Of a stretch of DNA of 25,352 nt, positions 13,173 through 25,352 are shown piece after piece. The notes under the pieces are model-generated. The model ran no database searches, was not told the origin of the DNA, and was given only the letters and a program-made list of their open reading frames with translations. Both the position numbers and the translations under genes were made by a program. Position 1 is the first letter of the stretch, and the number at the start of each line of letters is the position of its first letter. The DNA lies in IMG/VR virus record IMGVR_UViG_3300033064_001224, positions 1 to 25,352 of that record; one strand, 5' to 3'. This DNA is from a virus.

Positions 13173-13500
13173 GGGTGAACCTCCCTTCAGACCAAAGACC
13201 GCTTGTCTTGGCCTCAACGACGAACTTCGCCACATGGTCAACAATGCTAAGACGGAACCGCTTTACTTCCGGCTGCCCCTGCTTTGCGTTGTAGGGGTCG
13301 TCGTTGTCCCACTCGTAGGGGCCAAACGCCATCCCACCCGTAACGCTGATGCCTCTTAGGCCGATAGGGGTCTCGTCAATGATCGTGAAAATCTCGCTCT
13401 CAGGGAAGGCAAATCGGTCCCACCATTGGCCCTCAAGGCCGAAGCGTTTCGCAAGTGAGAGGGCGAGTTCACGCTCCTCTGTACTCCGAAAGCCACTCAC
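13159..13500 (-). CDS. Unknown protein between terminase and portal (113 aa)
   Basis: A helical N-terminus (STEERELALSLAKRFGL) is followed by a beta-rich domain (FAFPESEIFTIIDETPIGLRGI, FRLSIVDHVAKFVVE). The start is GTG 13500, overlapping the terminase nuclease stop as GTGA. The 3' end overlaps the portal start by 14 nt. The family is not recognised. By position it could be a packaging accessory or a small virion protein. No small terminase subunit has been identified in the window, but this protein does not show the DNA-binding helix pattern expected of one. Confidence 0.6.
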   Translation of the reverse strand: MSGFRSTEERELALSLAKRFGLEGQWWDRFAFPESEIFTIIDETPIGLRGISVTGGMAFGPYEWDNDDPYNAKQGQPEVKRFRLSIVDHVAKFVVEAKTSGLWSEGRFTLGST

Positions 13501-14258
13501 CGCTGACCCCCAAGAATGGGGCGGGTGTAGCGTTTCTGACTTGTGTTTCCCTGGTGCATATTGACCCTCGCCTTACGCTTCATCATCACCGCGTATCTCG
13601 TTGCGGCCATGATGTCGTCGTGTTTGTCTACAATCTGTCCGCTCTTGCGGTGGTACATTCGCTTTTCTTCAAACCACTCCCTCAGATGAGAGAACACCTT
13701 GAAGCGCCCTGTCTCCATCCGCTCCAGTATCTCAATCACCACCGGCTCAATCGGTTGCGCGCCCTGCTTCTTGTCGTCATACGAAGCGGACTTCGGAAGC
13801 ATGTTCGCGTTGTGGCTCTTGTAAATCTTCCACAGAGGCCGTGACTTCTCGCTGCCCTTGTCCCTGTTCACCCCGTCGTGCGGCCATGCCACAGGAACCC
13901 ACTTGCCCCACTTGTTGATTTCAGCAGCGTGGTACAGCGGTGTCTTGTTTGCCCTGCGGTAACAATCCGTCACATAGATGGTGTCTGCGTCTTTGTCCCA
14001 GGCAATCTTGACGCCTGCCGCAGGATGGTCGATGCCGAAGTCGATCCCCGTAATTTGGTAGTAGTGATGCGGTATCTCGAACGCCGGAACCGAGATCAAC
14101 TCGTCCAGAATTGGGTACACAGCACCGGAGCCCAGAAGCGGGATGCCCTTGGAGCGGGTTTCCCTTTCATGCTCTGGGTACGCCGCGAGAATGATGTTCT
14201 TTGTTTCTTCGTCTAGGTGCGGGGCGTCATCCCACGTCACGACCTTGAACCACGCCAT
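13497..14258 (-). CDS. Terminase large subunit, nuclease domain polypeptide
   Basis: This 253-residue product corresponds to the C-terminal half of a phage large terminase. It opens with VVTWDDAPHLDEE and YPEHERETRSKGIPLLGSG, which in ordinary terminases links ATPase and nuclease. It continues with the RNase H-like nuclease: first acidic strand ITGIDFGIDHP (about residues 69-79), VAWPHDGVNRDKG, and the C-terminal acidic helix DKHDDIMAATRYA. The C-terminus is basic. It starts at ATG 14258, overlapping the stop of the ATPase gene by one base (TAATG), with GGAGG 10 nt upstream inside the ATPase gene. So it has its own ribosome-binding site and need not be made by frameshifting. Confidence 0.8.
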   Translation of the reverse strand: MAWFKVVTWDDAPHLDEETKNIILAAYPEHERETRSKGIPLLGSGAVYPILDELISVPAFEIPHHYYQITGIDFGIDHPAAGVKIAWDKDADTIYVTDCYRRANKTPLYHAAEINKWGKWVPVAWPHDGVNRDKGSEKSRPLWKIYKSHNANMLPKSASYDDKKQGAQPIEPVVIEILERMETGRFKVFSHLREWFEEKRMYHRKSGQIVDKHDDIMAATRYAVMMKRKARVNMHQGNTSQKRYTRPILGGQR

Positions 14259-14983
14259 TACTCAGAATCCTCCACGATTTCAGCGTCGTTCATAAAGTGG
14301 TTGACCACATTCGTTGCACCCTGCAAGGGAGTAAATGTCAGCATCAGCCGTCCCTTGGAATCAAGGATACGAGTCAGTGCTTCCGTGTAGAGTTCTGGCG
14401 GTGGCTCCTCGTCCAACCAAATCAGGTCGCGTGAGGTGCCCTGCCACTGCCTTCGTGCAGGCTCGCCCTTGCCCGCGTGATACGTCTTGAGCGTAACAGT
14501 CGAATCACCCCCTGACACATGCTTGACACGGATGGTATCAACAACGTCCTTAACGCCACTCTGTCGGTACGTTACCCGACCTAAGTGACTTCGGGGTATC
14601 CATCCGGTGCCGTGCTCGCCCTCCTCACCGAGAAGACCGAATTGAACAATGTCCTTTGACAGTTCGTTTGACTCGCAGCCCGTCCACACTTTTATGGGGC
14701 GGTCCCACTTCCGACCCTCCCACCAATCGGGATACAGGCCGGTCATCTGGATGGCTACCTCTGCACACGCAGTCTGCGTTTTGCCAACACGATTTCCGGC
14801 GAATAGCCCACGCTCTAACTCAGTGAGTCCAGCGTCGTGAAACTCTTTCTGCCACCAGTACGCACCAATGTTCGAACCTCCAAAGGGAAGTTTGTGGTCG
14901 TACAGATTGTGATAGGTGGCGAGGAGTTTGTTGTAGGTTAGGTATTCAACGAGGTCGTTTAACTCGTCCGTGCCAAACTTCAT
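14258..14983 (-). CDS. Terminase large subunit, ATPase domain polypeptide
   Basis: This 241-residue product holds the packaging ATPase. It has an adenine-binding-type WWQKEFHDAG (about residues 43-52), Walker A AGNRVGKT (62-69), Walker B LIWLDEEPP (187-195) and coupling motif LTFTPLQG (215-222), then stops just after VVNHFMNDAEIVEDSE. A normal large terminase continues here into the nuclease; the nuclease is the next gene. The start ATG 14983 has GAGG 5 nt upstream and overlaps the GNAT gene by 38 nt. Both halves look intact in their motifs, which argues against simple decay. Confidence 0.85.
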   Translation of the reverse strand: MKFGTDELNDLVEYLTYNKLLATYHNLYDHKLPFGGSNIGAYWWQKEFHDAGLTELERGLFAGNRVGKTQTACAEVAIQMTGLYPDWWEGRKWDRPIKVWTGCESNELSKDIVQFGLLGEEGEHGTGWIPRSHLGRVTYRQSGVKDVVDTIRVKHVSGGDSTVTLKTYHAGKGEPARRQWQGTSRDLIWLDEEPPPELYTEALTRILDSKGRLMLTFTPLQGATNVVNHFMNDAEIVEDSE

Positions 14984-15395
14984 ATTCCTCGACTACTGAA
15001 AAGCCCAACTCTTGGTAGAGTCTCAGGGCTGGATTGTTCTTTTGCGTGCCGACCTTCACCGAAGGGCAGACATGCAGGATGTGCTCTACGAGTTTTCGCC
15101 CGTAGCCCATGCCCCTAAACTCGGGGTCAACTGCGATGAGTTCTAAACGTCCGTCTTTTAGACTGACAAATCCAAGCGGCGGGTCGCCGTGAACGAACAC
15201 CTTGTCTTCTCGGATGTTTCGCTCAACCCAGTCCCGCTTGACGCGATCCGCCTCAGCGTTTGGGAACAGGGGGTCTGCATGGAATCTGTCGTGTTCGAAT
15301 GTGCTTGCGATTTCACGACACGTTGGGATGTCGCTGTCGCCCGCGAGTCGTAGGCCCCAATCGGAGCCACCACCCTGACCCTCAAGCTGGACCAT
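14946..15395 (-). CDS. GNAT-family N-acetyltransferase (149 aa)
   Basis: Acetyl-CoA-dependent N-acetyltransferase fold: the core strand LELIAVDPEFRGMGYG carries the R-G-x-G-x-G pyrophosphate loop (RGMGYG), followed by RKLVEHIL and the C-terminal NNPALRLYQELGFSVVEEYE motif. I prefer ATG 15395, which leaves a 14-nt overlap with the methyltransferase gene, over 15461, which would add 22 residues inside it; the Shine-Dalgarno is weak. The gene closes the sugar cassette, so an amino-sugar substrate (as for PseH, LegH, WbpD) is the favoured inference. Protein or small-molecule acetylation cannot be excluded. Its end overlaps the terminase start. Confidence 0.75.
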   Translation of the reverse strand: MVQLEGQGGGSDWGLRLAGDSDIPTCREIASTFEHDRFHADPLFPNAEADRVKRDWVERNIREDKVFVHGDPPLGFVSLKDGRLELIAVDPEFRGMGYGRKLVEHILHVCPSVKVGTQKNNPALRLYQELGFSVVEEYEVWHGRVKRPR

Positions 15396-16314
15396 CGTCG
15401 TTACCAGACGGTGGCCCTTCGGGGGGTTCGGGCCTTGGTGGAGAGATACTGTGCCAGTCATCGAAAAACTTTATGACCATCCTGTAATCAAGTGGGCCGG
15501 TGGAGTCCGGTTCGCCGTCTTTGTAGCCGATGGCGTACATCAGCCCAACGTCCGGGTTGTGGGTAGCGCCCTCTTGAACAGGCAGCTTTACGCTGTTCAG
15601 CATGGAACGAAGGCATGACGCACTCCAACGGGTCGGGTGCGTGTCAGGCGGTGTCTTGCTTAGGTAGGCACCAAGCGACCTGTTGATGGGCGCGAGCACT
15701 CTGTGGCCCGTAACAACAATGATCATCCCGCCCGGTCGAAGCAGGCTGTAGGTTTTCTCCAGAACCTCGCGGGGGTTTCCGCAGTTCTCCAGAGTGAAGT
15801 TGAATATCGCCACGTCGAACAACTCTGCCCCAGGATTGAACTCCTCCAGGGTGCCCTGAAAGACGTTCGCAGAGGGGTTCCGAAAGCAATTCTCGCCCGA
15901 AGGCTCAACGTGCCACGTTACGCAACCAAACTCCCTGTCCAGATAGCGCCCCATATGACCCTCGCCGGCACCAACATCGAGGACCAATTTGTCCTTCAGT
16001 GGGGAGGCGGCATCAAGAATGTGGCCGATGTATGTATGCTGCGCCCTCACATGGGGCAGTATCGCGTTGTAAGCACCCCTATAGAGTTCCGACCATGCCT
16101 CGGCTATGGCAGCCCCCGTGCGTCGCTCGATGATGTAGACGTGCCCACAGGACTTGCAAACGTGTAGTGGCCCGGTCATGTAGTGGCGGGCAACCTCAAT
16201 CTCTGCTGGGTCGTCCGCACCGCATACGTCGCAAACGTGGTGGGTGTACTCTAAATGAGAGTTGTCCCAGTCAGGCAACCAGGCAACCATCTGCGGGTTG
16301 CTGATATCGTTCAT
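15382..16314 (-). CDS. Zinc-binding SAM-dependent methyltransferase, sugar type
   Basis: The N-terminal domain has two Cys pairs (CDVCG at residues 28-32, CKSCGHVY at 53-60), as in the putative zinc-binding domain of sugar C-methyltransferases and related class I enzymes. The Rossmann domain follows: motif I VLDVGAGEG (111-119), LFDVAIFNFTLEN (motif II region) and LLRPGGMIIVVTG (motif III region). The C-terminus is proline-rich and disordered (SISPPRPEPPEGPPSG). The ATG at 16314 overlaps the amidotransferase stop as ATGA with AAGAGG 9 nt upstream. I chose it over an ATG 24 nt further upstream. It probably methylates a sugar or its amidino/amino group in this cassette; the substrate is inferred from context. 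Confidence 0.75.
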   Translation of the reverse strand: MNDISNPQMVAWLPDWDNSHLEYTHHVCDVCGADDPAEIEVARHYMTGPLHVCKSCGHVYIIERRTGAAIAEAWSELYRGAYNAILPHVRAQHTYIGHILDAASPLKDKLVLDVGAGEGHMGRYLDREFGCVTWHVEPSGENCFRNPSANVFQGTLEEFNPGAELFDVAIFNFTLENCGNPREVLEKTYSLLRPGGMIIVVTGHRVLAPINRSLGAYLSKTPPDTHPTRWSASCLRSMLNSVKLPVQEGATHNPDVGLMYAIGYKDGEPDSTGPLDYRMVIKFFDDWHSISPPRPEPPEGPPSGNDDGPA

Positions 16315-17423
16315 TGCGGTGGCCTCTTGAGTTGCCACTTGTCGTACTCACCGCGCTCCCACAGCTCATCATTCCGATGAAGGTTCACAATATCCTCAAG
16401 TGCGTATTCGTTCACTCCAAGGTAGTCAAGCACGTCATACAGGAACGTCCTGGGGTACTCCCCGTCGAATGCCCTGACATGCTCCAATGCCTGTGTCAGC
16501 GTCATGTGGCCGTTTTGGATCAGTCTCGCTGAATCTCTGAGCGAACGCCCAAACCCGAATTTCACATGCTGGAGGTAGAAGTAGAGGTCGTCAATCTTGT
16601 CGTCTAGCGAATCGTAGTTAGTAAACGTGCCGTCCGACCGTCCGGCAGCACAAAGACGGAAGTCAATGAGTTCTCGGACATAATCGAAGTTCTTGCGAAT
16701 GTCCCAAGGGTGCCAAGCACCGAAGTAAGTAACGCAAACGTCCGATACATCATCGGGATAAAGGTATGGTGCAAGGTCTTGCTCACTGATTCCGTCGCCA
16801 ACCCAGTTTAGAGGGTGGTCGCCAATTTGATGTTCAATTACTTCGTCGAGGTATCGGAACTTTCGGTGGTCTTCAGAGAGTATGTGGCCCCCGTATTCGG
16901 TCTCTCCGTGCTCTGCAAAGACAACCAGCTTAATTCCCCGGTTGACAGCTTCTTGCACTGGGATGGCGTTAATCCCAGCCGCACGATGTACTTCTGGATT
17001 TCCCCTTTCAACGAGGAATCTTTTGGCCAGATTGCGCGAGACTTCTTGGTTGACACGGAAATAGACGTTATCGAATCCGGCACGGCACATCGCCTCTCTG
17101 TTGTGGTTGCCTACTTCAGTCGGAAGCAGAGGTGAGTAAGTGACTAGCAGGGGGTTCATCCCGTAGTCTCGTTTCAAGTGTAACGCTACCGCCGACGAGT
17201 CCTTGCCACCAGACCAGGGGACGATGCAATCGTACTGGCCGTTCCCCCTGTGTTCGTCCGCGAGTTTCACGAACTCCTTCGCTCGCGATCCCCAATCTAT
17301 CTGACCCTTCGTTTCGTGATACCGACATGCGGTACATACTCCAGTTTCGTCAAACTCCAACCTTGGTCGGGTGGACGGCATCAGGCATCGGACACAGAAC
17401 TGGGCTTCAGCAGATTCACTCAA
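16311..17423 (-). CDS. N-acetyl sugar amidotransferase, PseA/WbpG/WbuX type
   Basis: This 370-residue PP-loop ATP pyrophosphatase belongs to the family that converts a sugar acetamido group to acetamidino. It opens FCVRCLMPSTRP...GVCTACRYHE (Cys10, 13, 30, 33). The PP-loop is VPWSGGKDSS (68-77), followed by YGMNPLLVTYSP, TEVGNHNREAM and AGINAIPVQEAVNRGIKLVVFAEHG. The family usually carries a CxxC before the AGI motif; here the equivalent is PEVHRAAGI, without Cys. The partners are normally HisH and HisF homologues; HisF is present just upstream, HisH is not. It starts at TTG 17423, overlapping the HNH stop as TTGA. Identification is confident at family level; the sugar substrate is unknown. 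Confidence 0.85.
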   Translation of the reverse strand: MSESAEAQFCVRCLMPSTRPRLEFDETGVCTACRYHETKGQIDWGSRAKEFVKLADEHRGNGQYDCIVPWSGGKDSSAVALHLKRDYGMNPLLVTYSPLLPTEVGNHNREAMCRAGFDNVYFRVNQEVSRNLAKRFLVERGNPEVHRAAGINAIPVQEAVNRGIKLVVFAEHGETEYGGHILSEDHRKFRYLDEVIEHQIGDHPLNWVGDGISEQDLAPYLYPDDVSDVCVTYFGAWHPWDIRKNFDYVRELIDFRLCAAGRSDGTFTNYDSLDDKIDDLYFYLQHVKFGFGRSLRDSARLIQNGHMTLTQALEHVRAFDGEYPRTFLYDVLDYLGVNEYALEDIVNLHRNDELWERGEYDKWQLKRPPQ

Positions 17424-17890
17424 CTAACATGACTCCATAGTTTTCGACCCTTGACCATGCTGACCAAGGGCTGTGAGATACCGTAATCGGCAGCTATCGT
17501 CCGCTGAAGGCGGCGGTCAGCGCGGATGGACAGGACGTCCTCCTTCGTCAACTTTGCCATGCCGCTATCCTCGCCACGCGCCGCGTTAACTCTCCCTTTG
17601 GCCGCCTTATCCCTCATGTTGTCTCTGTGTGTGCCGAGAAACAGGTGCTCCGGGTTCACACAGGCAGGAACGTCGCAGTGGTGGCAAACGCACATGCCTT
17701 CTTTGATTGGGCCGTGGTGAATCTCGTATGATGCTCTGTGCGCGTATACGTATGCGCCGTCAATCGAGAGCGCCCCGTACCCAGGGCCGGTTCGTCCCCC
17801 CGTCCACAACCAGCAACCCCCTGGCCCAGATGAATCAATCTTCGGCCAAAACTTTTTATCCAATTGGGCGGACGGGGATTCCGTTGGCAC
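17420..17890 (-). CDS. HNH endonuclease with C-terminal HTH (156 aa), homing-type
   Basis: The HNH domain is GCWLWTGG...GYGALS, AHRASYEIHHGPI, then VCHHCDVPACVNPEHLFLGTHRDN with His/Asn metal ligands and two Cys. A C-terminal helix-turn-helix (IAADYGISQPLVSMVKGRKLW) probably gives target recognition. It is a paralogue of the HNH gene at 19260-19724. It lies between hisF-like and pseA-like genes, overlapping hisF by 35 nt (GTG start 17890) and pseA by 4 nt. It thus splits a functional gene pair without breaking either. This is typical of a free-standing (intron-less) homing endonuclease. Confidence 0.85.
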   Translation of the reverse strand: MPTESPSAQLDKKFWPKIDSSGPGGCWLWTGGRTGPGYGALSIDGAYVYAHRASYEIHHGPIKEGMCVCHHCDVPACVNPEHLFLGTHRDNMRDKAAKGRVNAARGEDSGMAKLTKEDVLSIRADRRLQRTIAADYGISQPLVSMVKGRKLWSHVS

Positions 17891-18542
17891 TAAGGTACTC
17901 CTTCGCTTTTGTTAGTGACGCTTTGGAAAAGTGGTAAATGTTTTGCGTAGCGACCGCATGAGCCCCAGCCTCCATACCGCCCACGATATGAGACCAAGCA
18001 CCGACACCACAGCAAGCCACAACGGGAATAACCACAGCATCAGAAACGCTGCTAATAAGACCATCATCCAGTCCCCCAAGCGATCCGTCTCTCTCAACGC
18101 TTTGGAGGAGGATTTCTCCCGCGCCAAGGCGTTGCGCCTCAATTGCAGCGGTAACGGGGTCATCGCATCTTCCTTTGTCAATCCCACAGGTTAAACTTTG
18201 AGAGCCGAGGTGTCCGGCGAGATTATCAATAGACGCTCTGTGCTTCCAGCCGACGAGCACTTTGTCCGCTCCGAGGTCAAGTAATCGTTTGGATTCGGCC
18301 CAGTCATGAACGTGGCCCCCGGCAGCGATAGGGACGAAGCACTCGCCAGCAATTCTCTCAAGAGCGTCATAGTAGGGTTGTCTGGGGCTTCCCCTGGGGG
18401 AAACGTCAATGACAAAGATTTCGTCTGCAAGGTCTACATCTACCATGTTCAGGGTGTAGCGATAATCCGCACGAAACTTCTTAGTCCGGTACAAAATCCC
18501 ATCTTGTAGGGTTAGGGAGATTATTAAACGGGACTTCAGCAA
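17856..18542 (-). CDS. HisF-like protein of acetamidino-sugar synthesis (HisF2 type)
   Basis: This 228-residue (beta/alpha)8 protein is homologous to imidazole glycerol phosphate synthase. The N-terminus is KSRLIISLTLQDG...RTKKFRADYRYT, with PIAAGGHVHD (71-80), LGADKVLVG and GIDKGR (catalytic-type Asp122). The first HisF catalytic Asp (in PCLDV) is replaced (ISLTLQ), as expected of the HisF2 subfamily that works with WbpG/PseA rather than in histidine synthesis. I chose TTG 18542, with AGAGG 8 nt upstream, because it begins exactly where the family begins; the price is a 62-nt overlap with neuB. In the known systems HisF delivers ammonia from HisH; no HisH is present here. Confidence 0.75.
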   Translation of the reverse strand: MLKSRLIISLTLQDGILYRTKKFRADYRYTLNMVDVDLADEIFVIDVSPRGSPRQPYYDALERIAGECFVPIAAGGHVHDWAESKRLLDLGADKVLVGWKHRASIDNLAGHLGSQSLTCGIDKGRCDDPVTAAIEAQRLGAGEILLQSVERDGSLGGLDDGLISSVSDAVVIPVVACCGVGAWSHIVGGMEAGAHAVATQNIYHFSKASLTKAKEYLSANGIPVRPIG

Positions 18543-19263
18543 GTGTCACTACCTCTTTTACGTCGCGCACAATCTCCGCAAGTTCGTCAGGGGTTGCCGA
18601 TAGCTGATGGTCCCTGAATGCCGAATGATCGTGGGCGATGGTGAAGTGTTTCTCAATGACGCGAGCGCCGTAGGCAGCGGCAACCTTGCACGCCATCGTT
18701 CCGATAGTATGGTCCGAATACCCCGCAAGACCAAATGTTTGCTGTATGTGAAGAACAGACACCAAGGATGCTTCCTCGGGAGGCGTTGGGTACTTCGATA
18801 CACAATGCAAATACATCATCTTGGGGCCGAATAGCGGTGGTGGGTTGCCCATACCCGTAGAAACAAGAACCGGCTTGCCCGTCGCATACGCTGCGCCAAT
18901 AAGCCTGAAGTCATCATGTGAGCGAGATGCAATCTTGAACGCCGGCACCAGAGGGGTCAGTAAGTCAACCGCCTCAGTGTCGAAGGGTGTGGACATGAAC
19001 AGGATGTCTTCGTGATCAGCAACCTTGGCTAGTTTCTCGAAGTCCTCCCAAGGAAGACAGATGCGTTGCAACTCCTCCAACCGCTCCGCGTCGCCAGCAG
19101 CCAACTTCCAAGGATTGATGGTCTGGAACTTCACCGCGTCGGCCCCCGCTACTTTAGCGAGGTGAATCAATTCAGCAGCGAGTTCGTAACTGCCTTCGTG
19201 ATTGTTACCAATCTCAGCGACAACGATGGGACGCTCAAGAAGGTCGAAAGGACCAATCTTCAT
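18481..19263 (-). CDS. NeuB-family nonulosonic acid synthase, no SAF domain
   Basis: It condenses phosphoenolpyruvate with an N-acyl hexosamine. Family motifs are all present: AEIGNNHEG (16-24), AVKFQT (43-48), STPFD (91-95), KIASRS (110-115), STGMG (135-139), LHCVSKYPTPPEEASL (152-167), GYSDHTIG (181-188) and EKHFT (204-208). The 260-residue protein ends after the TIM barrel; bacterial NeuB/SpsE/LegI/PseI enzymes are about 330-350 residues, with a C-terminal SAF (antifreeze-like) domain that helps close the active site of the partner subunit. Its loss is unusual. The ATG at 19263 overlaps the HNH stop (ATGA); four more residues upstream are possible. The sugar product (Neu-, Leg- or Pse-type) cannot be told from the sequence. 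Confidence 0.85.
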   Translation of the reverse strand: MKIGPFDLLERPIVVAEIGNNHEGSYELAAELIHLAKVAGADAVKFQTINPWKLAAGDAERLEELQRICLPWEDFEKLAKVADHEDILFMSTPFDTEAVDLLTPLVPAFKIASRSHDDFRLIGAAYATGKPVLVSTGMGNPPPLFGPKMMYLHCVSKYPTPPEEASLVSVLHIQQTFGLAGYSDHTIGTMACKVAAAYGARVIEKHFTIAHDHSAFRDHQLSATPDELAEIVRDVKEVVTLAEVPFNNLPNPTRWDFVPD

Positions 19264-19724
19264 ATGTGGGTCCACACTTTGTGAGTCTTTATTTGGCTGA
19301 CTAATTGCTGACTCACGCTGTACTCTAAAGCAATGTGCCTCTGTGGCCGAGCGTCACGGCGAATGGCGGCAACTTGCAACTTGCTTAACTTGGCGCTTGA
19401 ATTGTCTTCACCCTTTGGGTGAAAGTCGCGGCCCTTCCGCACCATGTCGTCCGTGTTGTCTTGATGTGTCCCCAGAAACAGGTGGTCAGGGTTCACGCAG
19501 CCGGGGACATCGCACTTGTGACAAACCAGGACTCCGTCAGGAACCTTCCCGACAAACATATCATACGAGGCTCTGTGAGCGAGTTTCCAACGCCCTAAGT
19601 ACCAGAACTGACCATAACCAGCGGACTTCGTATAAGCCGTCCACAGCCAGCAGCCGGTGTTGGGTTCGGGGGAAACCTTTTCGAAAAACCTCGCTTCAGT
19701 CTCGCTCGCTGTACCAACGGACAT
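19260..19724 (-). CDS. HNH endonuclease with C-terminal HTH (154 aa), homing-type
   Basis: The domain order is the same as in the gene at 17420-17890: GCWLWTAY...GYGQF, AHRASYDMF, VCHKCDVPGCVNPDHLFLGTHQDN, then LEYSVSQQLVSQIKTHKVW. The two proteins share most of the HNH core and the HTH, so they arose by duplication or came from one element family. It overlaps the SDR gene by 29 nt at its start (ATG 19724) and neuB by 4 nt at its end. It inserts between them without disrupting either. Expression probably relies on read-through of the sugar operon. Confidence 0.85.
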   Translation of the reverse strand: MSVGTASETEARFFEKVSPEPNTGCWLWTAYTKSAGYGQFWYLGRWKLAHRASYDMFVGKVPDGVLVCHKCDVPGCVNPDHLFLGTHQDNTDDMVRKGRDFHPKGEDNSSAKLSKLQVAAIRRDARPQRHIALEYSVSQQLVSQIKTHKVWTHI

Positions 19725-20664
19725 AAGCCGGTATCCCCTTCTCTAAAGGCCATTTGGGTTCATGGCCTAGCATATCCCGAGCCTTTGCCATAACGCAAGT
19801 ACCTCTTGCGGGCATCTTCATCTCGTTGGGCTGCTGTTCCCAAGTAAGGGTGGGGTAGTGTTCTCGCAATATGCTCAAAACCTCGATCAACTGTCGGGCC
19901 TTACCAAATGTCATATTGAATGTTTCGCCCCGGATGTCGCTTTCGAGTGCGAGAACAGTCCCGTCTACGAGGTCGCTTATGAACGTAAAGTCCAGCGAAG
20001 AAGAATCCTGCACCCTTACGGGTTGTCCACTCCGAGCGGCCTCAATAAATTTCTGAATTACCCTTCCCGAAATGCACCGGGGACCGTACAACGCTGACGG
20101 TCGAATAATTGTGTATGGGAGGTCCATCTCCCGGTATCCCTTTATGAGGTTCTCTCCCGCCAGCTTCACACCGCCGTAGAGCGTCTTGGGATCGCACTCG
20201 TTGCTCTCCAGCGCCATGCCCAATTGAAAGTCGCCGTACACCATTGATGAGGAGAAGTACATCACATGGGGTCTGTCAGGAAAGACATCCTCTTGGACTG
20301 AAACGTCCAGGATGTTCTCCAGGGTCTTGAGGTTGTTCGCGAAGGTTTCGTGCATCATCTTTCTTGCACGGTTCGCGTGAGCAACCGCAGAGAGGTGGAC
20401 AATCGCGTCAGGCTGGAATTCCCGTGCGACCTTTGACAGTGCTTGGTAGTCAACAGCATCTACGACTCTCGTATCGACCCCAGCGTCCCGCATGAGGAAC
20501 TGCCGGTCTGCAAGCATGTCTCGATACGCTTGGGGCTTTTCCTCGGGGGAGTAGATGTTGTTGATGCGAAGGAAGTCCGCAACCATGACTTCGTGTTTGG
20601 GTCGTAACGCTATGGCGAGGTTGTGGCCTATGAATCCGGCACCCCCGCAAAGAAGTACCCTCAC
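19696..20664 (-). CDS. Extended SDR: NAD-dependent nucleotide-sugar epimerase/dehydratase
   Basis: This 322-residue extended SDR has dinucleotide-binding GGAGFIG (7-13), LSAVAH (91-96), the active-site Ser strand MYFSSSMVYGD (135-145), YGGVK with catalytic Tyr163/Lys167, IIRPSALYGP and a DFTFISDLVDG substrate-domain motif. Length is typical. GTG 20664 overlaps the HNH stop as GTGA with GGGGG upstream; the longer frame to 20742 lies inside the HNH gene. It could be a UDP/GDP-sugar 4-epimerase or 4,6-dehydratase (LegB-like); the exact reaction is not decidable by eye. A remnant resembling its first codons lies upstream of the HNH gene (21091-21126). Confidence 0.85.
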   Translation of the reverse strand: MRVLLCGGAGFIGHNLAIALRPKHEVMVADFLRINNIYSPEEKPQAYRDMLADRQFLMRDAGVDTRVVDAVDYQALSKVAREFQPDAIVHLSAVAHANRARKMMHETFANNLKTLENILDVSVQEDVFPDRPHVMYFSSSMVYGDFQLGMALESNECDPKTLYGGVKLAGENLIKGYREMDLPYTIIRPSALYGPRCISGRVIQKFIEAARSGQPVRVQDSSSLDFTFISDLVDGTVLALESDIRGETFNMTFGKARQLIEVLSILREHYPTLTWEQQPNEMKMPARGTCVMAKARDMLGHEPKWPLEKGIPAYVRWYSERD

Positions 20665-21098
20665 GGGCGTTTCCCCCGGTAGTGGTTGAGTGTGCAGGCG
20701 CGCGAACAAAACCGTGGTCGGGCACGCCCCTTGTACCGCCACCTAGGTCTGACAAAATCCACACCGCAGTCGTCGCACTCAAAAGTTTGGCGCGAATCGC
20801 TGTGTATAATCTTATGCTCCGACGGTGAGAGTGGCTCAAGGTTCTCGATGCGGTCGTTATCCCGTGACCCGTCAATGTGGTGCAGTTCCATCCCCTTTGG
20901 GTGCGGTTCTCCGGTTTCCAGCCACCAAACCACATGCGCCCTCAGAGCATACCCACTTTCATACGAACGAGGGCAGTCCGGTCGATAGACACGGAATCGG
21001 CCCCTGTTGTCCGTGTAGCCATCGTTCCAATCATCAGGAGACCACGGCTCCACACGCTGGCGCGTGAACCGACCTTTTTCGTCCTGAACTCTAAGCAT
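20661..21098 (-). CDS. HNH endonuclease with C-terminal zinc motif (145 aa)
   Basis: The HNH core is ELHHIDGSRDNDRIENLEPLSPSEHKIIH (metal-binding His-His, Asp, Asn, His), seen in pieces. It is followed by a zinc-ribbon-like tail with FECDDCGVDF and RFCSRACTLNHY. The N-terminal WND-GYTDNRGRFRVYRP segment resembles the DNA-binding leader of phage HNH proteins. It is a different subfamily from the pair at 17420 and 19260. It sits between the aminotransferase and SDR genes: the ATG at 21098 is inside an 11-codon vestige of the SDR start, and the stop overlaps the functional SDR start. That is strong evidence that it arrived by homing at the SDR 5' end. Confidence 0.85.
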   Translation of the reverse strand: MLRVQDEKGRFTRQRVEPWSPDDWNDGYTDNRGRFRVYRPDCPRSYESGYALRAHVVWWLETGEPHPKGMELHHIDGSRDNDRIENLEPLSPSEHKIIHSDSRQTFECDDCGVDFVRPRWRYKGRARPRFCSRACTLNHYRGKRP

Positions 21099-21126
21099 CA
21101 GAGCCGCCGACCAAAAGAACTCTCAC
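21091..21126 (-). pseudogene. Vestigial 5' end of an SDR gene upstream of the HNH gene
   Basis: A GTG at 21126, with GGGAG 5 nt upstream, opens an 11-codon frame reading MRVLLVGGSDA and a TAG stop. The functional SDR at 20664 starts MRVLLCGGAG. Codon by codon the two match in meaning, but many third positions differ (AGA/AGG, GTT/GTA, TTG/CTT, GGC/GGG, GGC/GGT), so this is not a perfect target duplication. The vestige is more likely the old start of a diverged allele left behind when an HNH gene plus a foreign SDR 5' end was copied in. The HNH ATG lies within it (ATGCTTAG), so HNH translation may be coupled to initiation at the old GTG. Confidence 0.7.
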
Positions 21127-21185
21127 GAAAACTCCCGTTGTTAGGTGTTCTGGTACTCGTTGAGACTAAACCGAATGTCAGTCAG
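21127..21185. other. Short gap after the aminotransferase gene
   Basis: This 59-bp spacer is one of the few non-overlapping gene joints in the cassette. It contains three tandem TGAC units next to the aminotransferase stop (21180-21188) and the Shine-Dalgarno of the vestigial SDR start. I see no gene, terminator or promoter in it. Confidence 0.5.
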
Positions 21186-22073
21186 TCATTTCAGAGCCTT
21201 CAAAATGGTTTCCATGTCGTCAGACCCCAAATGAGGCCCGATGGGGAGCGATATTGCTCGTTTGGCGATCCTCTCTGACTTCGGGAATGAACCCTCGGGG
21301 TAGCCAAAGTAGGACATCAGGGGGACCGGGCGTGGATAGTGGATGCTGGGCTGAACTCCAGAATGTCTCAGCTTCGTAATCCACCAGTCCCGGTCATCTC
21401 GGTAGACGTTCACGCAATAAGCGTCCCCGATCATCTCAGATTCATCTAATTCAAGCAGTATTTTAGCGTTTTCACGCCTCTTTGCTTGCGTTTCAGGTAA
21501 TCTTTGGAGTTGAGACAGCCCGATGGCCGCTTCAACCTCGTTCATGCGGTAATTGAAGGCCAAATCAGGTACGTCGTACCCGTAACCCTCTTTCACATAC
21601 CCGAAAGCCCGTCGATGACGACAGAATTCCGCAATCGCGTCGGAATCGGTGGCTATCATGCCCCCCTCTAAGCATGTCAAATTCTTCGTCGGGAAAAACG
21701 AATAGACTCCGGCGCTCGTCTCCGGTTTTGTCTCCACATTCAGTGCTTTGTCCGTCCATTTACCGCTCCAGACGCTCTCATCAATCCACTGTGGCCTCAA
21801 CCCGGCGTATTCGGCGGCAAATCCCGTCGCAACGTGGGTCATGGCCGGTACTTCTATCTCATCAATCCCATTCAGCACTTTATACGCCAGATACACCAAA
21901 TGAAGGCCCGATGTGCAGGAGTTCACCGCGATGGCGTGTTTTACACCCAGATGACTTGCAAATGCTGCTTCAAAGGCCGGTGTGACCTTCCCTGCGACGA
22001 GTTGGGGGTCGGAAAGGGTGATATCTGCCACATATCGGTCGAAATCGGTTATCGTGGGGCGGAAACCTATCAT
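21186..22073 (-). CDS. DegT/DnrJ/EryC1/StrS-type aminotransferase, internally shortened
   Basis: PLP-dependent sugar aminotransferase family. The features are AVNSCTSGLHL (49-59), the EIEVPAMTHVATGFAAEYAGLRPQWID segment seen in pieces, the Schiff-base lysine in SFFPTKNLTCLEGGMIATD (Lys130), FNYRMNEVEAAIGLSQLQRL and SIHYPRPVP. At 295 residues it is about 70-100 shorter than usual. The stretch that normally lies between the 'VDVD' strand and the Lys motif, with IIPVHLYG and the E-D-A-A/C-x-A/G motif whose Asp holds the PLP ring nitrogen, is not visible. About 20 residues (VWSGKWTDKALNVETKPE) replace it. It may be a compact phage form or catalytically altered. ATG 22073 overlaps the upstream stop (ATGA). 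Confidence 0.8.
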   Translation of the reverse strand: MIGFRPTITDFDRYVADITLSDPQLVAGKVTPAFEAAFASHLGVKHAIAVNSCTSGLHLVYLAYKVLNGIDEIEVPAMTHVATGFAAEYAGLRPQWIDESVWSGKWTDKALNVETKPETSAGVYSFFPTKNLTCLEGGMIATDSDAIAEFCRHRRAFGYVKEGYGYDVPDLAFNYRMNEVEAAIGLSQLQRLPETQAKRRENAKILLELDESEMIGDAYCVNVYRDDRDWWITKLRHSGVQPSIHYPRPVPLMSYFGYPEGSFPKSERIAKRAISLPIGPHLGSDDMETILKALK

Positions 22074-22309
22074 GATGGCTTGAAGTCCTCCATCGAAACA
22101 ATATCGGCGCTTACTCGTGCCTTTTGCTTGGCAACGGTAAGGAGCATCTCGCTCACAGCGACATTGTACTGCTTGGTCAGCACTCCAATCCAGTCTCCAA
22201 GAACATCGGCGCGGTAGAGTGCATCCTCATTGATGAAGTCCTCGTCAAAGACCACATCCCCCTCGCCCGTGAAGTCGTCTTCTCTGAGTCGCGTCTTGGC
22301 GAACTTCAT
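22070..22309 (-). CDS. Small acidic protein of the sugar cassette (79 aa), unknown
   Basis: It begins MKFAKTRLREDDF, has an acidic segment (GEGDVVFDEDFINEDALYRA) and a C-terminal helix (YNVAVSEMLLTVAKQKARV). It is joined by 4-nt ATGA overlaps on both sides, to the oxidoreductase and the aminotransferase. Such joining supports real translation and a link to the sugar genes. I see no phosphopantetheine-type Ser motif or metal-binding pattern, and no family is recognised. Confidence 0.65.
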   Translation of the reverse strand: MKFAKTRLREDDFTGEGDVVFDEDFINEDALYRADVLGDWIGVLTKQYNVAVSEMLLTVAKQKARVSADIVSMEDFKPS

Positions 22310-23037
22310 AACTTAAAAACGTCCTCCATCAAGCCGAGGGTATCCTCGGTCGTTACCATTGGTTCAACTTTTCGGTCACGGATATGAGCCACGAAGGACT
22401 CCAAAACGTCCGTATCAGGGTTCTCTCGCTTCCCGTCATACAGGTATCGTCTTTCGTCAGGATACCATGCTGAGAAGTAGTGGTGATGCGGCGGTGATGA
22501 CTTGAGGTCACTCGTCAGCGTTCCCGAGCCCCTGGCGAAGCTGATGACGCTGAGTTCACATTCGTCGGACTGTATTGTCTTGGCTTCCACCACAGGGCCT
22601 AGATAGAGCCGCATTATGTCCAATAGGTGAATCCCGCCGCACAGGTGAGGCCCCACCTTTTCCCATTCGCGTTTCTCGTCCTTTCGGCCCCAATTGTATG
22701 AGGCGTCGATCCGATACGGTTGAGACTTGAGTTCCGGCATCCTTGCCCGCATGGGAAGGTTCATTGAGAGAATACCCCCGGTTCTTCGGCAACGGTCGGT
22801 GATGTCGTCGAGTTCGTGTGGTTCCAGGCAAAGAGGTTTTTCGCAGAAAATGGGAATTCCCGCAGACAGAAGGGACATCACCTGATTGTAGTGAAACCTG
22901 TCGGGAGAGGAGACGATCGCGAAGTCGCAGGCCACCTCAGCCCACATGTCGTATGCATCAACCTCTACGCCCCAACCCTCAAGGGCCGCGATGTGCTTCT
23001 TGCCCTGATGACCGGCACCTAATACTAAGGCCCTCAT
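22306..23037 (-). CDS. Gfo/Idh/MocA-family sugar oxidoreductase (compact)
   Basis: The Rossmann NAD(P) loop is VLGAGHQGKKH (5-15), followed by VSSPDRFHYNQVMSLLSAG, the family CEKPL motif with Lys67, and GGIHLLDIMRLYLG (134-147) with the usual Asp/His of the active site. At 243 residues it is about 80-100 shorter than standard members, the loss being mainly at the first domain and the C-terminal sheet. In sugar pathways such enzymes oxidise C3 (WbpB) or reduce keto sugars (PtmA-like context). It lies between the SpsF-like and DegT genes. The ATG at 23037 overlaps the upstream small gene (ATGA). Confidence 0.8.
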   Translation of the reverse strand: MRALVLGAGHQGKKHIAALEGWGVEVDAYDMWAEVACDFAIVSSPDRFHYNQVMSLLSAGIPIFCEKPLCLEPHELDDITDRCRRTGGILSMNLPMRARMPELKSQPYRIDASYNWGRKDEKREWEKVGPHLCGGIHLLDIMRLYLGPVVEAKTIQSDECELSVISFARGSGTLTSDLKSSPPHHHYFSAWYPDERRYLYDGKRENPDTDVLESFVAHIRDRKVEPMVTTEDTLGLMEDVFKL

Positions 23038-23213
23038 TTCAGGCCCTCCAGACGCGATGCTATCATGGCGTTCAGGTTGTCCTGGGTCGTGAAGTGAGCA
23101 AGAACGTCAGCAATGAAAGCGTCCATCTTCTTGTCGAGGGCGTCCATCCGTTCCTTCAGGTCAGCGATGTCCTGCCGATGGTCTACAACGAATTCCAATT
23201 TGCCGTATCCCAT
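23034..23213 (-). CDS. Small coiled-coil protein (59 aa), unknown
   Basis: After MGYGKLEFVVD the protein has a strongly heptad-patterned helix (DIADLKERMDALDKKMDAFIADVL) and a second helix (NLNAMIASRLEGL). It may form dimers or trimers, perhaps as an adaptor for the cassette enzymes. The ATG at 23213 overlaps the cytidylyltransferase stop as TGATG; a GTG one codon upstream is also possible. The stop overlaps the oxidoreductase start. No family is recognised. Confidence 0.6.
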   Translation of the reverse strand: MGYGKLEFVVDHRQDIADLKERMDALDKKMDAFIADVLAHFTTQDNLNAMIASRLEGLK

Positions 23214-23863
23214 CACGCACCCATCCAGGCAACGAGGTCTTCGCGGGTGTCAATCGTCGGGCCAGGGTACTTCCCCGGAAACTTCAAAACGCGGTCCTTG
23301 TTCTTGTAGAGCGCCTTCGTGACGTGCTCCCGTTCGTCGTCATCCATCTCGGGATAAGCCTGTCTTAAAGCAGCCACGCAGACCACCTCGACGGAATTTC
23401 CGCTATTCGGGACGTTCGTGACCAAATCATTCAAAACGTACTTCGGAGCAACCTCCGGGTGGCCCTTCTTCGAATTTGCAAACGTGGTGGGTTGATATCT
23501 CGTGGCCTTGTGATGCCAGAGGTAAATCGCCTTGTCAACCGAGCCGGCGTGAATCTCAGGAGAGTCAGCACAGACCCTCACGAAAGCCTGATCGAAAGGA
23601 GCCTTGGTCGCCATGAACTCCAGAAACCTATCAGCGACGTCCATAGGAGCGCCGTCGTGGCGGTAACAGTGCACGCTGTGCTGACTGCACCACTTCGCAA
23701 TCTGCTCGTCCTCTTCCTCCATCGTGGTCAAAACGTGAATCTCAGATGCCCGGACGCACTTCCGTAGTCTCTTGACCATGCGTTCGAGAATCGGTGGATC
23801 GCCTAGGAGAACTTTCCCCGGTAGGCGGGTTGACCCCATTCGGGCCTGTATAAGGATTTTCAA
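23213..23863 (-). CDS. SpsF/CMP-NeuA-type cytidylyltransferase
   Basis: Nucleotidyltransferase of the SpsF family, which activates sugars as CMP derivatives. The N-terminal signature ILIQARMGSTRLPGKVLL (3-20) contains the nucleotide-binding loop. It is followed by EIHVLTTMEEEDEQI, the PMDVADRFLEF motif (the family's 'DVLxRF'), VRVCADSPEIHAGSVD and the terminal DTREDL. The 216-residue length is near normal. The start is TTG 23863, overlapping the preceding stop by four bases (TTGA). With the NeuB synthase 4 kb downstream it suggests a CMP-nonulosonate route. Direct evidence for which sugar is activated is lacking. Confidence 0.85.
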   Translation of the reverse strand: MKILIQARMGSTRLPGKVLLGDPPILERMVKRLRKCVRASEIHVLTTMEEEDEQIAKWCSQHSVHCYRHDGAPMDVADRFLEFMATKAPFDQAFVRVCADSPEIHAGSVDKAIYLWHHKATRYQPTTFANSKKGHPEVAPKYVLNDLVTNVPNSGNSVEVVCVAALRQAYPEMDDDEREHVTKALYKNKDRVLKFPGKYPGPTIDTREDLVAWMGA

Positions 23864-24045
23864 AGCGCTGCCGGTGTGAGGATGAAAGCACCGTAAACCA
23901 TGTCGTCCTCAAGGTGGTTTTTAATCGCCTCCAAAGCATCACGCCTGCTTTCGCAGATGTGGGCCTCGTCGCCAAAGCGCCAATCCCCGTTGTCGTCTTG
24001 AGGAGCAACAACCCAAACCTCAAACTCGCTCTTGTCGATAAGCAT
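23860..24045 (-). CDS. Small protein before the sugar cassette (61 aa), unknown
   Basis: Begins MLIDKSEFEVWVVAPQDD and continues with a helix of acidic and basic residues (ESRRDALEAIKNHLEDDM) and a hydrophobic end (YGAFILTPAAL). The alpha/beta pattern could be a small compact domain. A perfect AGGAGG lies 5 nt before ATG 24045, so it is probably well translated. It follows the tmRNA-like RNA and overlaps the cytidylyltransferase start by 4 nt. The family is not recognised. Confidence 0.65.
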   Translation of the reverse strand: MLIDKSEFEVWVVAPQDDNGDWRFGDEAHICESRRDALEAIKNHLEDDMVYGAFILTPAAL

Positions 24046-24110
24046 AGAACCTCCTGTGTGAGGCTCAAACCTACCCTTTGGGGGGCGGGGGGTCTAATCA
24101 CGTTTCCGTG

Positions 24111-24244
24111 AAGTATTGACCGGGGCTGCTACCCCGTCGCCCCCTCAAGTGAGGACCGAAGCGTGACCCGTCAGTCAGAGGCTCCGGCCATAAATGTTGG
24201 AGGCGGTGGGAGTCGAACCCACGTTGGCCCCGGTCAATTTACTT
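24111..24244 (-). ncRNA. Permuted tmRNA-like (tRNA-Ala-like) structured RNA
   Basis: On the minus strand a tRNA-like domain can be folded in permuted order. The 3' half comes first: a helix strand at 24238-24227 (ATTGACCGGGGC), the linker CAAC, a T arm (stem GTGGG/CCCAC, loop TTCGACT with the full tRNA consensus, 24222-24206) and acceptor 3' strand CGCCTCC (24205-24199) with discriminator A. A ~53-nt intervening segment follows, then acceptor 5' strand GGGGGCG (24144-24138), an 11-nt D-loop analogue (ACGGGGTAGCA) and the second helix strand GCCCCGGTCAAT (24126-24115). The 12-bp helix is perfect and extends by AAGT/ACTT after a 2-nt bulge. The acceptor stem contains G3-U70, the alanine identity pair used by tmRNA. 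No tag reading frame is obvious downstream and CCA is not encoded. Confidence 0.6.
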
Positions 24245-24430
24245 CTTGCCAGGAATCCGCTGCAACTTCCGCTTGGACGAAGAATTCGCAGCCCGGATGG
24301 TCCGTAACTCGCGATTGGTCATCTGTCCAAAACCCGTCGATCCAGTCGGACCCTTCGGACCCTTCGCCGCCGCCCTGACCAGCGCAGCCTCACGATTGGT
24401 CATCGCTCCAAGACCTGTTTTATTCGCCAT
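24239..24430 (-). CDS. Small basic protein with internal repeat (63 aa), unknown
   Basis: It contains two copies of a short motif, GAMTNREAALVRAAAK and GQMTNRELRTIRAANS, separated by a Gly/Pro/Lys linker, and ends in a basic tail (SSKRKLQRIPGKK). The repeat and charge suggest nucleic-acid binding, but no family is recognised. I chose ATG 24430, which has AAAAGG 7 nt upstream. A TTG at 24466 overlapping the HNH stop as TTGA would add 12 residues and fits the joining habit of this operon. Its stop codon lies inside the first strand of the tmRNA-like helix. Confidence 0.65.
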   Translation of the reverse strand: MANKTGLGAMTNREAALVRAAAKGPKGPTGSTGFGQMTNRELRTIRAANSSSKRKLQRIPGKK

Positions 24431-24462: not shown

Positions 24463-24867
24463 TCAAATTAGTTCGGTGTGGCGCGTCTTTGGATAATGCT
24501 TGTCGCTACAGACCAAAGCATGAAAAGAATCCATTACCTCATCGTCTGTGTACTTGCGAGGCCGTGCCGCCGCAAAGTCTATGTCCTTCGACCGGGGACG
24601 ACGAATCGGGCCGATAACAGTCACACCCTTGCCAGAGTGCAACCGGGCATGATCCGCGCCATCGACCATCACCAAATTCAATGGGTCGTTGTTTCCATGG
24701 TTCCCATCCAAATGATGAATGTGGAACCCGTCCTTCATTCTCGCCCGAAACCAGCGCCGAGTTCGATCCGAATGTGCGCGCAACCAAGCCTCGTGATGGG
24801 GCTTCCTAACCTGCACATTCTGTGCTCCAAACCTATCGTAATCGCTAATAGGTTGCGAATAGAGCAT
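24463..24867 (-). CDS. HNH endonuclease (134 aa)
   Basis: The HNH core is GFHIHHLDGNHGNNDPLNLV with the His-His pair, Asn/Asp and a downstream DHARLHSG. It is preceded by a basic helix (WLRAHSDRTRRWFRARM) and followed by a ~55-residue basic tail that may bind DNA. It is a third HNH subtype in the window and opens the minus-strand operon. The start ATG 24867 has only a weak Shine-Dalgarno (GGGGTT). Its stop overlaps a possible TTG start of the next gene. Confidence 0.8.
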   Translation of the reverse strand: MLYSQPISDYDRFGAQNVQVRKPHHEAWLRAHSDRTRRWFRARMKDGFHIHHLDGNHGNNDPLNLVMVDGADHARLHSGKGVTVIGPIRRPRSKDIDFAAARPRKYTDDEVMDSFHALVCSDKHYPKTRHTELI

Positions 24868-24991
24868 ATAACCCCGTCTAAGTCGATACTTTTGTCAGCC
24901 TCGAAGCCTCTTTTCGTGGTCCGATACAGTTCCAGGTTGTATTCCGCTCATTTCGGCTCAAGCATTGTGGTCATCCTCAGCCACATCCCCG

Positions 24992-25015
24992 ACCCCTCGG
25001 GGGGTGCCCCACCCC
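24992..25015. other. GC-rich overlapping hairpins
   Basis: Two alternative stems share bases: ACCCC-TCGG-GGGGT (24992-25005) and GGGGTG-CCC-CACCCC (25001-25015). They cannot form together. No U-tract follows on either strand, so an intrinsic terminator is unlikely. They may be part of the leader of the minus-strand operon. Confidence 0.35.
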
Positions 25016-25072
25016 TTGTTGCGGTGCACCATAGAACGGGGGAACAAACCGTGAACATGCCCGGCGGTGTCG

Positions 25073-25088
25073 CATAATATGCATTATG
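25073..25088. repeat. Inverted repeat CATAAT-ATGC-ATTATG, possible operator
   Basis: A 6-bp perfect inverted repeat with a 4-bp centre. It overlaps the left edge of the candidate -35 box at 25086-25091, the position of a repressor or activator site. No matching protein is encoded in the window. Confidence 0.4.
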
Positions 25089-25114
25089 ACAAATGACTTA
25101 CTCAACCTTATCAA
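25086..25114 (+). promoter_or_regulatory. Candidate sigma70-type promoter for the rightward gene
   Basis: ATGACA (25086-25091; 5 of 6 to the -35 consensus), a 17-bp spacer, then TATCAA (25109-25114; 4 of 6 to the -10 consensus). The implied start is about 45 nt before the ATG at 25165. Read on the other strand the same boxes give TTGATA-17-TGTCAT, so the site could also fire leftward. Confidence 0.4.
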
Positions 25115-25164
25115 TGACTTAGCGTCATGGTGCACTGCTTCCTGACAGCAACCGAGGTGTGTTC

Positions 25165-25352
25165 ATGCTTTGTTCTTGTGCGCTGCAACATGCTCATCTC
25201 GTACAGTTTTGGGGGCAGAGTGAGAGCGCGACGGCCCGAGGCTTTGAATCTAATGATTGGGATGACCTAGGTTATGGTCTATTCCCCTTGGTCTATAAGG
25301 TGACTGGTCGAGGTATCCAAAAACCCATGATCCACGGGCATTGGTCCTCTTA
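25165..25352 (+). CDS. Partial rightward gene, unknown
   Basis: An ATG at 25165, with GAGGT about 7 nt upstream, opens a frame of 62 codons with no stop before the right edge. The product begins MLCSCALQHAHLVQFWGQ and includes SNDWDDLGYGLFPLVYK. No family is recognised. The Shine-Dalgarno, the open frame and the candidate promoter upstream support a divergent gene, but the frame is short and could be chance. Confidence 0.4.
   Translation, partial: MLCSCALQHAHLVQFWGQSESATARGFESNDWDDLGYGLFPLVYKVTGRGIQKPMIHGHWSS

Follow-up and report, generated by a model that had tools for sequence, protein, structure and literature searches.

The tmRNA is the RNA that rescues stalled ribosomes. Its gene also exists in a permuted form, common in alphaproteobacteria, in which the coding piece comes after the helix P2. 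A phage tmRNA consisting of the tRNA-like domain (TLD) only, that of DS6A, was reportedly described by Mao et al. in 2009. As far as the available text of the sources goes, this mycobacteriophage RNA carries little beyond the TLD and is listed among the tag-less tmRNAs of standard form, and a similar molecule strongly inhibits tmRNA (PMC4131195; also PMC11915505), whether or not it can be charged with alanine, perhaps through titration of SmpB (PMC4131195). The alpha, beta, and cyano models of permuted two-piece tmRNAs, which encode a tag, have been merged into a single Rfam family, RF04321 (tmRNA_permuted; PMC11915505), and such tmRNAs are also present in marine phages such as Melnitz (PMC9004378). 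Finally, the tmRNAs of mitochondria (RF02544), which are usually permuted and apparently lack a coding sequence (CDS), are found together with SmpB (PMC11915505). Phage tmRNAs that are permuted, phage tmRNAs without a CDS, and mitochondrial tmRNAs with both features are thus each already known separately; no earlier description of a phage RNA with both features was found in the literature searched, outside of which most subscription journals fall.

The window, by which we mean the whole stretch of 25,352 nucleotides analyzed here, comes from a tailed phage and makes up a 25-kb record in IMG/VR. On its minus strand, a tRNA-like RNA could be read base by base at 24245-24110, with its parts in permuted gene order: GAAGT-AA-ATTGACCGGGGC, CAAC, the T arm, CGCCTCC-A, a 53-nt intervening sequence (IVS), GGGGGCG, ACGGGGTAGCA, and GCCCCGGTCAAT-ACTTC. 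The reading that fits this element best is a CDS-less (TLD-only) tmRNA in permuted form. The element has the features of the permuted form (an acceptor 5' strand preceded by the T arm and the acceptor 3' strand, a 7-bp acceptor with G3-U70, a stemless D loop, and P2), as well as that of a TLD-only tmRNA, namely a tRNA-like domain without a tag frame.

The gene order opens with the 3' strand of P2 (24227-24238), visible in both sequence and fold, which forms 12 bp with the 5' strand at 24126-24115; beyond an AA bulge, the extension GAAGT (24241-24245) pairs with ACTTC (24114-24110), so that the 5' side as a whole spans 24110-24126 and P2 comprises 17 bp in all. At the bulge, the register can slip by one base. 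The T arm, GTGGG-TTCGACT-CCCAC (24206-24222), matches RF04321 and RF00023 and is part of the predicted fold. It is followed by the acceptor 3' strand and A73 (24198-24205; U70 at 24201, A73 at 24198), and then by ACA (24195-24197) where CCA would stand, the latter not being encoded. The IVS (24145-24197) is predicted to form a strong hairpin. The acceptor 5' strand (24138-24144; G3 at 24142) closes the 7-bp acceptor stem, in which CGCCTCC (24205-24199) pairs with GGGGGCG (24144-24138), and the 11 nt between it and P2 (24127-24137) form the D-loop analogue, recognized by sequence and by spacing comparison, without a D stem. Directly 3' of P2, at the expected start of a tmRNA coding piece, lies a hairpin, CACG-GAAA-CGTG (24099-24110), seen in sequence and fold. 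All parts that the initial annotation had listed (the 12-bp P2-type helix, T arm, 7-bp acceptor, G3-U70, A73, and D-loop analogue) were found in the sequence; the helix extension it reported is present as well, but measures 5 bp rather than 4.

The minimum free energy fold of 24244-24105 is the TLD structure (z = -3.9), and none of 200 shuffles folded as well. Once CCA is attached, the two mature strands were likewise predicted to co-fold into the tRNA-like domain of a tmRNA, while in longer mRNA contexts alternative folds are predicted to compete with it. To estimate the chance expectation, we scanned for a 5-bp T arm whose loop reads TTCRANN, with a 7-bp acceptor no more than 130 nt downstream and a P2 helix whose strands lie 8-18 nt beyond the acceptor 5' strand and 0-8 nt ahead of the T stem. 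In simulated background of the window's dinucleotide content (1.15 Gb), the expectation was 1.3e-4 per window for this geometry with a P2 of at least 12 bp, a figure into which the exact T-arm/acceptor sequence is not counted. A block shuffle of the collected loci (22 Mb) yielded 3 matches whose P2 reached 8 bp or more. In the whole IMG/VR collection, only 82 stretches carry the 23-base T-arm/acceptor pattern that fits the window, and those inspected were mostly tmRNA, tmRNA-like, or tRNA genes.

Comparison with the Rfam tmRNA families, to which the initial annotation had pointed, gave a divided answer. RF04321 aligns in permuted order (T arm, acceptor, IVS, acceptor 5' strand), but with 27.7 bits stays below its curated cut-off of 47 (E = 0.0012 across all families, 9e-6 for RF04321 alone against this record). 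RF00023 matched the T-arm half of the element with 23 bits, the mitochondrial family RF02544 had no match in the window, and no Rfam family reached its curated cut-off there. ARAGORN called no gene on the element. The 11-nt D loop and the 3-4-nt linker from P2 to the T stem resemble those of intact permuted phage tmRNAs recovered by the same scan (D loops of 11-13 nt), and gene order, G3-U70 acceptor, T arm, IVS, and P2 are likewise shared with the RF04321 tmRNAs. Unlike these, however, the element is tag-less, and its D loop lacks UUCGAC, the canonical tmRNA motif (GG-UUCGAC) being replaced.

To examine covariation, the de-permuted TLD of the window, shortened by one linker base to equalize lengths, was aligned with one permuted tmRNA and four TLD-only RNAs. 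Each of the seven P2 pairs compared had changed on both sides between the window and the other TLDs, and 99.1% of cells pair, a count that leans toward structure because the register of each row was picked by pairing. The covariation score was reached by no shuffle and was destroyed by sliding the partner strand. Acceptor and T arm are invariant and give no covariation signal, since their sequence served to retrieve the other rows.

As the initial annotation had stated, no tag frame follows the element. The three frames after P2 hold early stops, the frame of a 61-aa gene, and a long overlapping frame, respectively, and none shows an Ala-Ala-type tag ending. Since the GAAA-loop hairpin follows P2 and no frame ends in such a tag, the element looks CDS-less. 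The structural reading proposed earlier, a permuted and tag-less TLD with an alanine identity pair, is backed by the fold, the order of the Rfam alignment, the spacings, and the statistics. Among the three options left by the initial annotation, a tmRNA reduced to its TLD is best supported and a decoy has a precedent in DS6A, whereas the failure to find a tag makes a full, divergent tmRNA unlikely. A permuted tRNA was ruled out: the 11-nt D region has no stem, there is no anticodon arm, and ARAGORN was silent.

The element sits between two co-directional genes on the minus strand. The upstream gene (24239-24430) encodes 63 aa from an ATG, or 75 aa from a TTG at 24466, and its stop codon overlaps the element, the TAA (24241-24239) falling inside the extended P2, as had been noted from the sequence before. 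The downstream gene (23860-24045) encodes 61 aa, with its Shine-Dalgarno sequence AGGAGGT (24055-24049) in a predicted hairpin. No relatives of either protein were found, making both orphans, and no promoter-like site of the element's own was seen. The acceptor 5' strand GGGGGCG is also predicted to pair exactly with CGCCCCC (24087-24081), 50 nt downstream, within the C-rich segment ACCCCCCGCCCCCC (24080-24093). Through this pairing, the 5' piece (24081-24144, minus strand) would fold on itself in a structure mutually exclusive with the TLD.

The capsid protein of the phage shares 41% identity with its counterpart in "Podoviridae sp." MW202713 and 76% with that of its closest IMG/VR relative, L090/L175. 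In L090/L175, the equivalent of the HNH gene at 24463-24867 directly adjoins the epimerase gene and the RNA is absent, which places the small genes and the RNA in variable cargo. The noncoding stretches 5' of the HNH gene (24870-25352 in the window, 500-798 in L175) look alike by eye, share a CACCCC/GGGGTG-rich motif, and may form a conserved control region. Rhizobial and Pelagibacter phages are among the many relatives of the terminase, which hints at an alphaproteobacterial host. The large terminase itself occupies two adjacent frames on the minus strand (14258-14983 and 13497-14258, together 13497-14983), each matching terminase families; in MW202713 it is a single gene. The two frames may reflect a real split or a frameshift. 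The minus strand at 15382-23863 carries sugar genes, encoding a NeuB/PseI-like synthase, a PseC-like aminotransferase, a cytidylyltransferase, an epimerase/dehydratase, a WbuX-like amidotransferase, and a WbuZ/HisF-like protein, a set that suggests a nonulosonic acid pathway with acetamidino modification. Four HNH endonuclease-like genes on the same strand (17420-17890, 19260-19724, 20661-21098, and 24463-24867) lie among the cargo genes.

A second copy of the element was sought in several ways. None was found in the available sequence of 80 capsid relatives, many of whose records are fragments and which had been collected with a two-sequence capsid alignment; neither the neighboring proteins nor a single-protein capsid search returned relatives from viral contigs. 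RF04321 matches of about 10 bits in these relatives turned out, where inspected, not to be permuted elements but tRNA-like 3' ends, one of them next to an integrase-like frame. Pattern scans of IMG/VR and GTDB genomes gave no second permuted CDS-less RNA, their matches being tmRNA genes with tags or false positives in tRNA clusters and coding sequences. By itself, the D-loop pattern matched too often and added no TLD among the matches listed, and most BLAST matches in phages and plasmids, 25-45 bases long, fell on the T arms of tRNAs or tmRNAs.

The T-arm pattern search did, however, fetch several groups of unannotated TLD-only RNAs of normal order from other IMG/VR phages, 73-83 nt long and without a tag: on the plus strand L019:12375-12454, L006:7286-7365, L007:7492-7571, L016:791-872, L044:7982-8060, L067:1235-1316, and L025:1422-1494, and on the minus strand L001:175-254. 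With the message skipped, RF00023 matched L019 (71 bits), L001 (61), L007 (56), L016 (42), L025 (42), and L067 (39), of which only the first three pass the cut-off. Judged by sequence and predicted structure, these are TLD-only RNAs beyond DS6A. L001, L006, L007, L016, L019, L044, and L067 share the acceptor and T arm of the window element, a similar D-loop length, a covarying P2, and the missing tag, but differ in their standard order and in a P2 closed by a loop; among those compared, the P2 stems vary with compensation. In L044, the RNA is flanked by the genes of a co-directional phage cluster. ARAGORN missed most of them and called those of L006 and L007 tRNA-Ala(TGC), while it reported tags for the permuted tmRNAs of L024, L029, L045, L047, L083, and L085. 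Unannotated permuted tmRNA-like genes were also observed in Pseudomonas phage SM1 (L303), with the predicted tag ANDTSFDVRLAA, and in Tunturiibacter phage Tunturi_4 (L306), where the gene adjoins one annotated as an RF-1 domain peptide release factor. L007 additionally contains a match to the type II hammerhead ribozyme (RF02276, 6046-6110, plus strand; 39.7 bits, above cut-off).

The explanation we tentatively favor is that the element is a permuted CDS-less tmRNA, processed within the operon, which most likely serves as a decoy that occupies SmpB and damps host rescue. It would be transcribed as part of the operon and cut by RNase P before G1 (24144) and by the tRNA 3' machinery after A73 (24198), the intervening hairpin being lost as in known permuted tmRNAs (PMC11915505). 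The product would consist of two strands joined by the 17-bp P2, with CCA added and with the alanine identity pair, and could thus be expected to be alanylated. Because the tag frame is missing, trans-translation could not be completed; instead, such a decoy would tie up SmpB, and possibly alanyl-tRNA synthetase or EF-Tu, and lower host ribosome rescue during infection. We favor a decoy because the TLD-only precedent of DS6A and the permuted, CDS-less form of the mitochondrial tmRNAs are combined in the window. Fold, chance estimate, permuted RF04321 order, spacings, P2 pair changes, and the absence of a tag all support a CDS-less decoy, as do the inhibition precedent of DS6A, the mitochondrial forms, and the TLD-only RNAs of other phages. 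It is weakened by the score below cut-off for RF04321 and by the failure to find a homolog among the 80 capsid relatives or in the pattern scans, so that conservation lends the copy in the window no support, as well as by the replaced D-loop motif, the missing promoter-like site, the competing folds, and the unencoded CCA. With respect to the precedents, DS6A was compared by description rather than by sequence, from the available part of its source, and the mitochondrial tmRNAs, while usually permuted and tag-less like the window element, are organellar.

Since alternative folds compete in the longer mRNA, a cis-acting element is a serious rival, albeit one we consider unlikely. It would either part the two small genes by recruiting RNase P and the tRNA 3' machinery, or act as a switch controlling the 61-aa gene, in which the acceptor strand alternates between its upstream partner (the TLD fold) and the downstream C-rich segment. 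The location between co-directional genes, the overlap with the first gene's stop codon, the exact GGGGGCG/CGCCCCC pairing, the Shine-Dalgarno sequence held in a hairpin, and the failure to see a separate promoter-like site would all fit such a role, which by itself leaves the exact tmRNA T-arm/acceptor sequence, G3-U70, and D-loop spacing unexplained; moreover, a C-rich run makes alternative pairing easy by chance. Decay of a full permuted tmRNA formerly present in the phage appears improbable. Complete permuted tmRNAs exist in phages (PMC9004378) and the RNA is missing from L090/L175, but decay should break pairs, whereas the T-arm, acceptor, and 17-bp P2 helices are all unbroken, and no trace of a tag was found.

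A functional, tag-less rescue tmRNA, which takes alanine and enters stalled ribosomes with SmpB while another factor completes release, has been proposed for the usually permuted, seemingly tag-less mitochondrial tmRNAs that occur with SmpB (PMC11915505). For the window we regard it as rather improbable, since weaker rescue would bring a phage little benefit in a host already equipped with tmRNA, and the only similar molecule tested, according to the available text on it, was inhibitory (PMC4131195). That the element is instead a complete tmRNA with an unrecognized tag frame seems very improbable: its permuted TLD is typical and tags can be as short as 2 aa (PMC11915505), yet no Ala-Ala-type tag occurs in the three frames and a tetraloop hairpin stands in the place of PK1. 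Slimmer still is the chance that a temperate phage carries a host tmRNA gene copy as its attachment site, as the tRNA 3' ends in distant relatives (one beside an integrase-like frame) and the integrase of MW202713 might suggest. A copied gene end should not include both acceptor strands plus a self-complementary P2 that lacks the coding piece. We rejected a prophage attachment site on the grounds that the TLD is complete and not a partial gene copy, that no integrase was recognized near the element or among the genes examined, and that in MW202713 the integrase sits at the opposite end of the structural cluster.

More broadly, and with more doubt than for a decoy at this one locus, phages may repeatedly have made tag-less tmRNA domains, in both normal and permuted two-piece form, as RNA antagonists of host rescue, with the window as the first permuted phage member. 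Together with the IMG/VR TLD-only RNAs, the element would turn the single phage case in the literature searched, DS6A, into a testable class, whose members current gene finders miss or misname, as in the "tRNA-Ala" calls of ARAGORN. If the proposed function holds, phages can reduce tmRNA to an alanine-accepting shell that is used against ribosome rescue, and the permuted two-piece form of the gene can outlive the loss of its message.
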